64,000 nucleotides of DNA from Naegleria lovaniensis (Eukaryota; Heterolobosea; Eutetramitea; Acrasida; Naegleriidae): the NCBI RefSeq assembly GCF_003324165.1, contig NW_025407825.1, forward strand, positions 682,001-746,000. The letters run 5' to 3'. Below the pieces are notes generated by a model. It was not told where the DNA came from. It did not search any database and saw only the letters and a list, made by a program, of their open reading frames with translations. The position numbers were made by a program, and so were the translations under genes. Below, in pieces: positions 35,122 to 40,868 of the stretch (position 1 is its first letter; the number at the start of each line of letters is the position of its first letter).

Positions 35122-35769
35122 TTAACAAGTCTCGAAAACAATCTTCCATGATGTAGACAAGCTCAATGATAAATTTTGAATGAATAATCGGCCAATATTT
35201 GACTCAAATCCATACCATGACCATGGCTGGCCATTCACACTCAATGAACAAATACTGCGACCCTGAACACCAAGGGTCATAATTGAAGTCATTGAAAGCT
35301 TGCTCGATTCAGTGTAACCATTCACAACAGGTGTTGCTTGAATCACATATTGGGAGGAAGAGGCACGCGTGGAGTTGAATGATATCATTGCATAATTTCC
35401 ACTCACAATGGAATCAATGGATTCTCCATCGTCTAAGAAGAGATAACCTTGAGCTTTTTGATTCGAATCCAAAGCAACTACTAAATTATAAGGATTGAAT
35501 TTCTGTTGGGCAGTACTCAAACCTGGTGTTTGTTTTGGAATAATGTATCCACCTCGAATATGAATTGGCATGGTATCCAATGGAGCATTAACATCAGCAT
35601 ATCCATCCGTTCCAGGAGACACTTGTTGACCTCCATAGTAATCATACCAAATCGACGAAGAAGGGAAATAAGCATGAACCATGGTCTGCTGGTAATACAA
35701 GACAGGTGACACGAGCAAAGCATCTCCAAACAAGAATTGTTCACTAATACTATATACTTGGGGAAGTGC

Positions 35770-38296
35770 CACTAATTACACTTTTTAGTTGCTGGAGGGG
35801 GTGGAGGCAATTTCATCGGTGAAACCGATGAAATTGCATCCCGCCTTCAGTTCCCACCAAAACTAAACGTTCAAATTTAATTAATTTAAAATAATAATTA
35901 TTATTAATAAAGTGAATAAATATTTACCTCATGTATGGCTTTAATAACAAGAACAAAACAAATGGTGAAACGTCAAACCTTACTCGCTCCAATCAAGAAA
36001 CAGATTCCAGTAGATTTTTACACAAGTGAAGAAAATCTTGACCAATATCAACTCTTCATGAATAGGTATTGCTTTCTCACAATGACAAGGCTTCAAATAA
36101 TTCCATCTCAAAAGCAAGCAATTCATTCAGCTGGAGCACGTTTGTATCAACAAATCAAAAACCACTCAGAACTTCTCGATGCAATTACTGATGTTCACTC
36201 AAACCTATTCACAACATCACATGAAGAATTCACAGTCCTATCTAAATCTGGTCGTGAATGGCTGGAGCAAAGGACTAGCAAGAGAGGTCGAGTTACAAAG
36301 CAAGACCAACTGCGTAAATCAATACAAGACCTTCAGTTACAAAGAAGTAACATACTTGAATTGAAATCCTCAACTCAGGATGAGGTGTTGTTGGCAGAAT
36401 ATGACAAACAATTGCAAGAACTGGACTTCAAAACACTTGACAAAAAGCAAGCGATTGCATATCTCGAAAGGAAAGCAGCTGAACAAAGGATCCGTAGACA
36501 CAACAGCAGCACGAACAAAATTGAAAAGAAGAGAGGACGTCCACGGAAAGCATCAGGAATGGCTCAAAGACTTCAAGCAGTAGTTGAAGGAACTGGTATT
36601 GCCTCTGCATCAGAGAGAAGAAGAGATTCATTTGTTCACACTCCTATGAACGGTGTTGATTTGGTTAAAGAAGCAAACGCTAAATTATCAGAAGAAGGAT
36701 TTCGTCCTTACAGCAGGTCTGGAATGTTACGGTATGTCGTTCCAAGGTGCAAAAGTAGTCGAGAGGGTAAACGACATGACTCTGAAGCTACTGTTAAACT
36801 TACCAAACCGTCAAACGACCTGACTGAGGAACATGTTGATCTACATGCTACCCATTCTCTCAACAAATACATCAAGCAGTTGTGTTGTCTATTGCCTGAA
36901 GAAAGTACAGCTATTTCTTTGGATGAAAAAGCGAAAATACCAACAAAAGGAGCGGCTGTATCGACATCAACACAAATAGCAATGACTTCCAGTAGCAAAG
37001 TTTCACTACCAGACCATGATTTTCCAAAAGGTAAAGAGAATTCAATCACTCCAAATGTTGCTGCATTGTTACGTGCGGTTGTTGGTGGTAATAACAGTCT
37101 TCGTTGGATGGTGGAAAAAGTGTATGTGAGAAGTAGTTCTAACGCCGAGTTTTTGAAGACCACTAGTCGAGATAAGGACAAGATGTTGTGTGATCTGGTT
37201 TTCTTCCTCGAGAAGCTGAAGGAAACCGGAAAGCTTCTTCCGTTATTTTTTTGTAACACTGACAACTGTGTAAACGTTGCTCCCCAGAACCGGAAGGTGC
37301 AGGTGAGGATGTTCTACGTATTCATTTGCTTCGACCTTGACGCTCTCATCCACACATCCTTTGCCGCAGGAGGTAGTAAGTACAATCGTGTTGAGCGATG
37401 TATGGCTCCGCTTTCAAAAGGCTTGGTGGGTGTTATTGATTTGGATGATGAAAGTTTTGCAAGCAAGCAACAGAATCATCATTCAGCTTTAATCAAACTC
37501 ACAAATATCTTCAACCAAAAGGGTGGCAAGGATGTACAGGCGTACTATGCTAGTGTATTCCAACAAGACCGTATTCGAGATTTACCTGGATGGCCATCTT
37601 TTGCTAGCATTGATGCTTTTTTGGAAGGAAAAGATATTACTGATTTGGAAGAAGAGAAGAAGGTGAAGGCAATACTTTTTAAACTCCACACACACTCAGA
37701 GCATGGTAATGGGTTGAACATCTTTTGTCTCCGCAAGTGCAATGATCCAAGTTGCTGTCCACCAAAAAGAGCAACTAAATATTGGGAATTGATGGAAAAG
37801 TTTGATGGTTTCATTCCATCTCCAATCCTCGATGAAAGTAATCCTGGTCATTATTTGTCGTTTGAAAAACGAAACAATGTGGAAGGAGTTAGAATGGATG
37901 AAGGGTTTCCGAGCGTTAAGGATGATGTCAAAACTTGTTCCCTTTGCGATCGTAGAGTCCACTCCGACATTGATTTAACGATTCACATGAAAGTGGTGCA
38001 CCCGAACAAAACCCAAAATCAGCTTGATGGTAGTCTTGACAAGGATGCACGAGTAAATCAAGTCGAGAAAACGCAGTTGGAAGGAAGGTCATTGTCTGCT
38101 CAGATAAACAGCATCGAAAGAAGGGCACAAGAGCAACCTTTGCGAGCTCGGGCAAAGAGACGCTTTTTGAACAAGTGATTCATTTTTAATTAATTAAATT
38201 AAAAATAAATAAAAATTATTTTGAAAAAAAAAATTTTAAATTTGAATTTAATTCCAAAAGCCAAACCCCCCTCCCCCCCATGTTCTGTAATTAGTG
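35770..38296. mobile_element. 2.5-kb DNA transposon inserted in the GH31 gene
   Basis: The ends are an 11-bp perfect inverted repeat, CACTAATTACA. G-rich tracts follow in the subterminal part of both ends on the outward-reading strand. A 14-bp palindrome with a 3-base loop (GCAATTTCATCGGT and its complement) lies at about 35814-35844. The flanks show GC on both sides, too short to be a sure target duplication; the three bases on each side differ. Inside is one long intact ORF, 35935-38178. The CACTA start recalls the EnSpm/CACTA superfamily, but the encoded protein does not resemble its usual transposase, so I leave the superfamily open. Confidence 0.85.
35935..38178 (+). CDS. DDE-like transposase with C-terminal C2H2 zinc finger
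   Basis: Single intact ORF, 747 residues, opposite in direction to the GH31 gene that hosts it. Residues 1-330 are basic and helical with an AT-hook-like KKRGRPRKASG near 200. The catalytic core shows three acidic positions in the expected order: AISLDEKAKIP near 325 (the DxKA type first strand), LFFCNTDNCVN near 440, and AAGGSKYNRVERCMAPLSKG near 485. A cluster CRKCNDPSCCPPKR near 605 and a classical finger CSLCDRRVHSDIDLTIHMKVVH (CxxC...HxxxxH, about 665-688) could bind zinc. I infer a cut-and-paste transposase. It is unbroken, so the element may still be active. Confidence 0.75.
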   Translation: MALITRTKQMVKRQTLLAPIKKQIPVDFYTSEENLDQYQLFMNRYCFLTMTRLQIIPSQKQAIHSAGARLYQQIKNHSELLDAITDVHSNLFTTSHEEFTVLSKSGREWLEQRTSKRGRVTKQDQLRKSIQDLQLQRSNILELKSSTQDEVLLAEYDKQLQELDFKTLDKKQAIAYLERKAAEQRIRRHNSSTNKIEKKRGRPRKASGMAQRLQAVVEGTGIASASERRRDSFVHTPMNGVDLVKEANAKLSEEGFRPYSRSGMLRYVVPRCKSSREGKRHDSEATVKLTKPSNDLTEEHVDLHATHSLNKYIKQLCCLLPEESTAISLDEKAKIPTKGAAVSTSTQIAMTSSSKVSLPDHDFPKGKENSITPNVAALLRAVVGGNNSLRWMVEKVYVRSSSNAEFLKTTSRDKDKMLCDLVFFLEKLKETGKLLPLFFCNTDNCVNVAPQNRKVQVRMFYVFICFDLDALIHTSFAAGGSKYNRVERCMAPLSKGLVGVIDLDDESFASKQQNHHSALIKLTNIFNQKGGKDVQAYYASVFQQDRIRDLPGWPSFASIDAFLEGKDITDLEEEKKVKAILFKLHTHSEHGNGLNIFCLRKCNDPSCCPPKRATKYWELMEKFDGFIPSPILDESNPGHYLSFEKRNNVEGVRMDEGFPSVKDDVKTCSLCDRRVHSDIDLTIHMKVVHPNKTQNQLDGSLDKDARVNQVEKTQLEGRSLSAQINSIERRAQEQPLRARAKRRFLNK

Positions 38297-40868
38297 GCTC
38301 CTCCCTTGCTTATCATATGGGAATGCAAAGAAGAGTGGTTTAGCGGCTACACCACCATTCATGTGAACCAATGCATGAGTGGTATAAATGTAAGGAAGTA
38401 ATGAATACCTGTTCAATAAGTATTTTCTTGAAATGTCAGTTGTTTGTTGATCAAATGCAAAAGGTTCTTGAGGTATGTTACCAATGGCATTGTGATTGCG
38501 ACTGAATGGATAGAGTGATCCTAATTGCATCCATCGAATTAAGAGCTCTTTTGTGGTATCACCATTGAAACCGCCAATATCTGAACCGACATGTGCAAAA
38601 CCAAACATACTATTCAAAAGAATGGACGCAATGGACGTTTTCATACTTTCGAATGTGCTGTCATTGTCTCCAGTCCAATGAGATACATAGTGACCACTTC
38701 CAGCAAAGCTACTTCTTGTTAACACAAAAGGTCTCTTGTTGTAATAGGTTTTTAGAGCTTCTGCTGTTGCTTTGGCTTCTAAAAACCCATACAAATTGTG
38801 AGCATTGTAGTGTGTAGTGGCACTCATTCTCGAATCCAAATCAATGGTTTTGTGGAAGAGTGGTTCATTGCTTGCTCCTGGAACAAATGGTGGATAATTA
38901 AGACTATTTTGATTTGGAATAAAGAAGTCTAAGGTTGCTGGTTCGTTCCTGTTGGCATGTAAGGGTGTGAGTAATGTAAACCATCATTCATGTGAAAGAG
39001 AGTTATTGCAAATTACAGTTTTAACAATTTTACACCATCAAATTCAATGTCAATCCAATATGACGACTACTTACATATCAATCCAAAGACCTCCAACTCC
39101 TGCAAGTGACAAAAATCCATGAATGAGTGGCTTCCAATATTGATCTTTACAAATTGGATTGGAAAAGTCAGGGAAATAGCAATTACCTGGCCATACAGTG
39201 TGATTCACATAACTATTTGAGGAGCCTTGCTTGATGAAAATACCAAGAGAAAGACCCAATTCATATGGCTCGTAACTGTTCTTTGTTAAATCCACAATAG
39301 GAATACCAGGATCTACAATGACCACATATTTCCTTCCTTTTTGCTTCAAATCATTGGTGACAAAGTTTCGAACGTCATTAATTGGAAAACGTGTTGGATC
39401 GAATGTGAAATCCCAATATTGATACATGTAATCAATGTCAGTCCACATGGCATCGAGTGGCAATTGATTGTTGTCATAACCTTGAACAACAGCCTTCACT
39501 TCATCCAAAGTTCGATAACCCCATCTACAAATTGAATCATTTAAGGGAATAGGGGTTGGTCAAAATCCCATTATTATCCAGAACGAGTCACGCATTGGCC
39601 AAATATGATGAGAAATTAATTTGAACATGCTTAAAAACAACCTACCTGCATTGATGGAAACCAAAAGCCCACATTGGTGGAAAATGTGGTTTTCCTATAA
39701 TGCTGTGGTATTGTTGAATAACATTCTCAGAGGATGGACCAAGGAAAAAGTAGAAATCCAAAACTCCACCAATCGTTTGATATTGCAAATATTTGGCAGA
39801 AGAGTGATACTCTGTTCTGATGCTCATAGCATTCGAGTTCAAAAGAAAAACTCCATGAGCTTCAGAATTTGGGGTGGCATAGAGATAGAATGGATGACTT
39901 CCATACAAGTTCATTTTCTCTGAATTTCCATTGCTAGGTGAGGGTTAACAATTAACAGATCGATCAAGGAGGAGAGTTTGAAAAATTAGTAAAAATCGGG
40001 TTTTGAACAAACAACACCACAACATGGTTAACAAGTTCATCCGTGCTACTGCAATCATTCATTCTATTACTTACTCATTGTTCCAAATGATAAATTCATT
40101 ATCAGTGATATTCAAACGGAAAGAATCAATGCGTTCTCCCAATCCATAAATATTTGGCTCTCCGCCATAATAATCTGGTGCAAGAGCTGTACCAATACTA
40201 ATGTACTGATCACTGAAAATGAAAGGTCTATTTGTGGTGTCAAAAATTGGTGCCGATTGTCCAACACTTCGACGTATGGTCAAATAGAATGGTTCTCCAA
40301 CCTTGGCGATTGTCACTTGATACTTATTTCCAACAGCTGACTTTTTCAAATTTGTCAAGTTTTCATTCAATACATATTTATCTGCCTGCCATCTCTTCTG
40401 ATCCTTGTCAGTGATTTTAATATGAACAATCGAATCAGTCATGTATGTGACAGTAAATAGCAATTGTGAGATATCATTTCCATAAGGTCCTCCAGTACCA
40501 TTCTTCAATTGCAAAATTCCACTCATTCCCGATGATGTATCAGATCTAGTCATGACAATATATTGGGAAGTGGGAATAGCCCAAGAGAATTTATATGGAT
40601 CATTTCTTTTCACTGTTTGGTCGTGATGAATATTATTTTCAGGTCGAGAAGTAATGACATTGGGTTCTCGTATGGTCCGATCATCAATTTTAATATTTCC
40701 GAATGTTGATGATGCACAAGCAACCACATGAATCATCAGAAGAATCATCGCAATGTTGATAAACAACCGTGATGAAACTGATCCCAACCCGCTGATACTT
40801 TCATACATTTTTTCTGGTTGTGTTGGCGAGGCAACAACAGGCAGCTGAGGCTGTTATTTCCTTTTTGA

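Follow-up and report, generated by a model that had tools for sequence, protein, structure and literature searches.

A very young insertion of a probable Zator-type DNA transposon in a GH31 alpha-glucosidase gene of Naegleria lovaniensis

How can a transposon lie inside a GH31 alpha-glucosidase gene in such a way that cutting it out restores the reading frame exactly? The question was raised by a window of 64,000 nucleotides from Naegleria lovaniensis, the whole stretch of DNA analysed here, in which the original prediction placed a DDE transposon at 35770..38296 and saw no clear target duplication. We found that the element is longer at both ends and is flanked by a perfect duplication. Very probably it is a Zator-type DNA transposon, related to ISAzo13 and moving by cut and paste, that entered exon 4 of the GH31 gene recently.

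Through BLAST of positions 35740-38330 against the whole genome (30.69 Mb in 97 contigs, the window being C4:682001-746000; the published assembly is described as 111 contigs and 30.8 Mb, PMC6125883), we found four further full copies, on contigs C9, C21, C24 and C25. Their matches to the window span 35761 to 38305, the C9 match ending at 38306, where one flanking base agrees by chance. The sequence CACTAATTACA is repeated perfectly at both ends of the element and is adjoined by GC on both sides. Nine extra bases at each end, outside CACTAATTACA, are common to all five full copies, and the sequence past 35761 and 38305 differs from copy to copy. Because the five copies share these nine further bases, the element is 35761-38305 (Table 1). 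The outer bases GGGAAGTGC and GCTCCTCCC are part of inverted repeats with 20-nt arms, 90% complementary, and both repeats and the length of 2545 bp were found in every full copy. A complete transposon with one long open frame thus does lie inside the GH31 gene, but the ends first given for it were wrong: those of the other copies differ from CACTAATTACA, which counts against the boundaries 35770/38296. Just beyond the true ends we found the target duplication that had been thought missing, a perfect 3-bp direct repeat in all five full copies (TTG in the window, TCT in C9, ACA in C21, AAT in C25 and ATA in C24). The insertion in the GH31 gene is a normal cut-and-paste event with a 3-bp target-site duplication.

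Table 1. Positions in the window of the transposon and of the GH31 gene that it interrupts
Feature	Position	Strand	Basis
Complete DNA transposon, 2545 bp	35761..38305	+	extent common to five full copies at different sites
Left terminal inverted repeat GGGAAGTGCCACTAATTACA, 20 bp	35761..35780	+	90% complementary to right end; in all five full copies
Right terminal inverted repeat GGGAGGAGCCACTAATTACA, 20 bp	38286..38305	-	inverted-repeat comparison; in all five full copies
Target-site duplication TTG, left copy	35758..35760	.	direct repeat outside element ends
Target-site duplication TTG, right copy	38306..38308	.	direct repeat outside element ends
Palindrome, 13-bp arms, 3-nt loop 35821-35823; loop GAA in the window copy and two further ones, inverted to TTC in the remaining two	35808..35836	.	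repeat search and copy comparison
Transposase gene, 747 aa (738 aa from second ATG), no intron needed	35935..38178	+	open in all five copies; relative P0002; ISAzo13/Zator-type family
Codon of D330, putative first catalytic acid	36922..36924	+	invariant in A2; end of first strand of predicted RNase-H-like fold
Codon of D443, putative second catalytic acid	37261..37263	+	invariant in A2; just after predicted strand 437-442
Codon of E487, putative third catalytic acid	37393..37395	+	nearly invariant in A2; on predicted helix 485-495
C2H2-like zinc finger (C668..H689)	37936..38001	+	weak Pfam zf-C2H2 matches of C-terminal piece, below cut-off; A2 conservation
GH31 exon 1	40075..40808	-	start codon, GT donor
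GH31 exon 2	39646..39933	-	AG before, GT after
GH31 exon 3	39075..39524	-	AG before, GT after
GH31 exon 4, interrupted at 3' side; in-frame stop 38293-38291 within element	38306..38948	-	frame, Pfam, exon joins
GH31 C-terminal part severed by element (PF21365 and beyond)	35122..35760	-	Pfam and PDB matches

Removing 35770-38296 does rejoin the GH31 frame, as was first noticed, but this is not special to that cut: removal of that segment, of the element only, and of the element with one duplication all leave the gene in frame. The first cut leaves nine bases of each terminal repeat (18 bp) and the second TTG, and it is in frame because these 21 bp are seven whole codons and keep the frame of the true empty site. 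The bases GGGAGGAGC/GCACTTCCC would stay at the empty site under the first boundaries and not under 35761-38305, and the protein would keep seven extra residues, GRSALPQ. Since all three models are in frame, being in frame cannot distinguish them; homologues do. With the element and one TTG removed, the empty site in gene sense is ...TAT GAT AAG CAA GTA TAT AGC... (YDKQVYS), and the protein reads YDKQ-VYSISEQF.

Comparing the two sides of the insertion separately, we found the K that precedes the duplication codon and the V that follows it to be separated by a single residue in 34 of 34 PDB rows (33 distinct GH31 sequences), which are partly redundant and include lysosomal alpha-glucosidase, maltase-glucoamylase, sucrase-isomaltase, neutral alpha-glucosidase AB, alpha-xylosidases and others. 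The rows come from 33 of the 40 PDB sequences listed. Left out were 8cb1 and 5djw, whose downstream match begins far from the junction, 2xvg, 5jou and 5zn6, whose upstream match ends far away, and 4xpr and 4xpo, which are absent from the 60 rows shown of the second match table; matches up to six residues short of the junction were extended gap-free. Among 119 of the 120 listed relatives (P0122, the truncated gene itself, was omitted; 4819 proteins were above threshold), the junction holds one residue in 105, none in 2, three in 8, four in 2, five in 1 and seven in 1, and the eight residues that the first cut needs were found in none of the 119. The nearest of those listed are N. gruberi (EK-S-TYTIEEQF), the metagenome protein P0124 (DK-N-TYTISEQF) and Willaertia magna (EQ-E-TYRIERQF). 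Misplaced boundaries account for both the puzzling exactness of the fit and the seeming lack of a duplication.

The transposase frame is open in all five full copies, and the relative P0002 matches the window transposase with 28% identity over 59% (E 1.1e-24). In a 40-row alignment (A2), composed of the window protein and 39 proteins picked from 120 listed, of 676 passing threshold, D330 and D443 are invariant and E487 is nearly invariant, and C668, C671 and H684 are conserved at 90% or more. The predicted fold, a model of moderate confidence, matches Mos1 with its mariner-like catalytic core and includes an N-terminal helical region of about 200 residues. In Mos1 the third catalytic residue is D, not E. 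NF033519 (ISAzo13) is matched by 21 of the 40 aligned family members and PF07592 by 11; the window transposase itself matches neither, and the family link runs through P0002. Among the 25 listed of 29 NCBIfam families (for Pfam, 25 of 42 are listed), we found no transposase model besides ISAzo13 for the aligned transposase family. The conserved triad, the predicted RNase-H-like domain and the ISAzo13 matches of the family bear out the initial reading as a DDE transposon.

Zator elements are described as having 3-bp target-site duplications and a transposase related to ISAzo13 (PMC10045372); the two are also paired in PMC5718144, and Zator is presented as a relative of the IS630-Tc1-mariner group (PMC7386202). 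The Naegleria element resembles them in its 3-bp duplication in every full copy, in a transposase family related to ISAzo13/TP36 through its aligned members, and in a DDE triad that would sit in the predicted RNase-H-like fold with a mariner-like core, a likeness judged by published traits of the superfamily. The paper defining Zator is said to be Bao et al. 2009. PIF/Harbinger elements have a 3-bp TWA target, and this class was rejected, none of the five duplications fitting TWA. With bacterial ISAzo13 (PF07592, NF033519), for which 3-bp duplications are also reported (PMC10045372), family members match across the DDE domain, whereas the Naegleria element has a eukaryotic host, the N-terminal helical region and a C-terminal zinc-finger-like motif. 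Tc1/mariner was rejected as well, the TA duplication described for it (PMC7386202) being absent and the Naegleria duplications being of 3 bp and of varied sequence. In the literature searched, no Zator element from Naegleria was described by title or abstract opening.

The window, C9 and C21 copies are identical across 2545 bp, and the C24 and C25 copies share four base differences from these three, namely GAA to TTC at element positions 61-63 and C1581T, which is synonymous (GAC/GAT, D469). Because three copies are identical over their full length, the insertion is young as judged by sequence, which agrees with the very recent insertion proposed at first; the remaining two copies differ by one loop inversion and one synonymous base.

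The change from GAA to TTC inverts the 3-nt loop between the 13-bp arms of a palindrome at element 48-76. This 29-bp palindrome near the left end has its loop flipped between two lineages of near-identical copies, TTC occurring in C24 (L005) and C25 (L004). Taken as single-stranded DNA, the element's first 110 nt fold strongly (z = -6.2). Two genome places carry the left end only, 66 bp on C63 (L050) and 62 bp on C12 (L051), and both remnants break inside or just past the palindrome loop. ATT stands before the C63 remnant and again directly after it, the pattern that excision with gap repair broken off early should leave; GAA stands before the C12 remnant, with no clear duplication after. In the 1500 bp that follow each of these two remnants we found no 14-base match to either strand of the element. 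They hint at past excision, for which the simplest account would be gap repair copying from the left end and halted at the hairpin. A diverged relative (C59:68659-69339, L019/L053; 45% identity) has an open frame of 232 aa that covers only transposase residues 8-228; it lacks recognisable terminal repeats and may be an old relic or a captured N-terminal domain.

The four upstream exons of the GH31 gene have GT donors and AG acceptors and join in a single open frame, in line with the intact flanking exons and splice sites noted earlier, and Pfam GH31 domains lie on both sides of the element. The motifs WIDMNE and HWTGD, which we take to be the nucleophile and acid/base regions, are upstream of the insertion. 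Continuing into the element, the reading frame gains GRSH before an in-frame stop at nt 13-15 of the element. The public 709-aa protein P0122 ('hypothetical protein C9374_009778 [Naegleria lovaniensis] / Maltase'), a 100% match to the window GH31 gene, ends exactly at this stop; the last four residues (GRSH) of this 'Maltase', whose gene is at window 38306-40808, are transposon sequence. The cut-off downstream part has 212 residues and carries the GH31 C-terminal domain (PF21365). The loss may be tolerated, since six other genome places (C13, C19, C61, C17 and two on C6) have GH31 catalytic-domain matches above cut-off, some of them partial or with stops.

A heterozygous state, in which the GH31 gene of the sister chromosome is intact and the assembly represents the allele with the element, is compatible with a recent Zator-type insertion, and we regard it as a possibility of somewhat low likelihood. 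It would suit so young an insertion, and the published sequence is called a 'final haploid assembly' from a diploid-aware assembler (PMC6125883). The flanking exon 4 occurs as a single copy in the 97 contigs, although a collapsed assembly would not show a second one.

It is very unlikely that the element is removed exactly from RNA like an intron, or from DNA like the internal eliminated sequences of ciliates, leaving the gene functional, as was first suggested. Outside the element the gene shows no damage, and its true empty site keeps the frame, yet any young insertion would be expected to look like this. In gene sense the element runs from GGG to CCC, and the in-frame stop precedes its first GT (nt 40). 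Within exon 4, no GT begins in the 44 nt next to the element, and splicing at the nearest exonic GTs, 45-50 nt upstream, would delete conserved codons. An RNA-spliced (introner-like) transposon, with border splice sites restoring the frame, was rejected on these grounds. The public model that ends at the stop inside the element comes from a genome whose genes were predicted with RNAseq data (PMC6125883); the evidence used here is the gene model itself. The other full copies lie at different sites with different duplications. Hardly credible at all is a CACTA/EnSpm-type element, with CACTA at its termini and either a GC duplication of 2 bp or none at all, as the first boundaries and the perfect, GC-flanked CACTAATTACA suggest: the ends are GGGAAGTGC.. 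and GGGAGGAGC.. with CACTA beginning only at base 10, the copies share nine bases beyond CACTA on each side, with a GC duplication the ancestral gene would have been out of frame, and among the families listed the only transposase models matched by the aligned transposase family are those of ISAzo13.

We propose that a full-length, probably autonomous Zator-type cut-and-paste transposon was inserted recently into exon 4 of the GH31 gene. The observed TTG duplication would be the product of fill-in repair, after the transposase had joined the observed GGG...CCC ends to target strands with a 3-bp stagger. The gene, by its sequence and by the public protein, now reads four codons into the element, stops, and is thereby deprived of its C-terminal domain. 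The duplication has the length of one codon, so the frame would survive even an excision that left both TTG copies, with QQ in place of Q, a deduction from the sequence rather than an event seen. The identical copies suggest that the family jumped recently, and the left-end remnants that it was probably excised elsewhere.

More tentatively, and with rather less than even confidence, an autonomous Zator may still be jumping in Naegleria: its one-codon duplication would make even excision that leaves a footprint in a gene frame-neutral, so that genes such as GH31 could revert, and the palindrome 48-76 bp from the left end would flip its loop between lineages and stall gap repair, leaving short left-end scars. 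The public 709-aa 'Maltase' model of N. lovaniensis should be treated with caution as a transposon-truncated gene. An apparent puzzle, a precise fit and a possibly self-removing segment, is replaced by an ordinary, well-bounded and very young cut-and-paste insertion, and by a candidate active Zator-type transposon in an amoeba.
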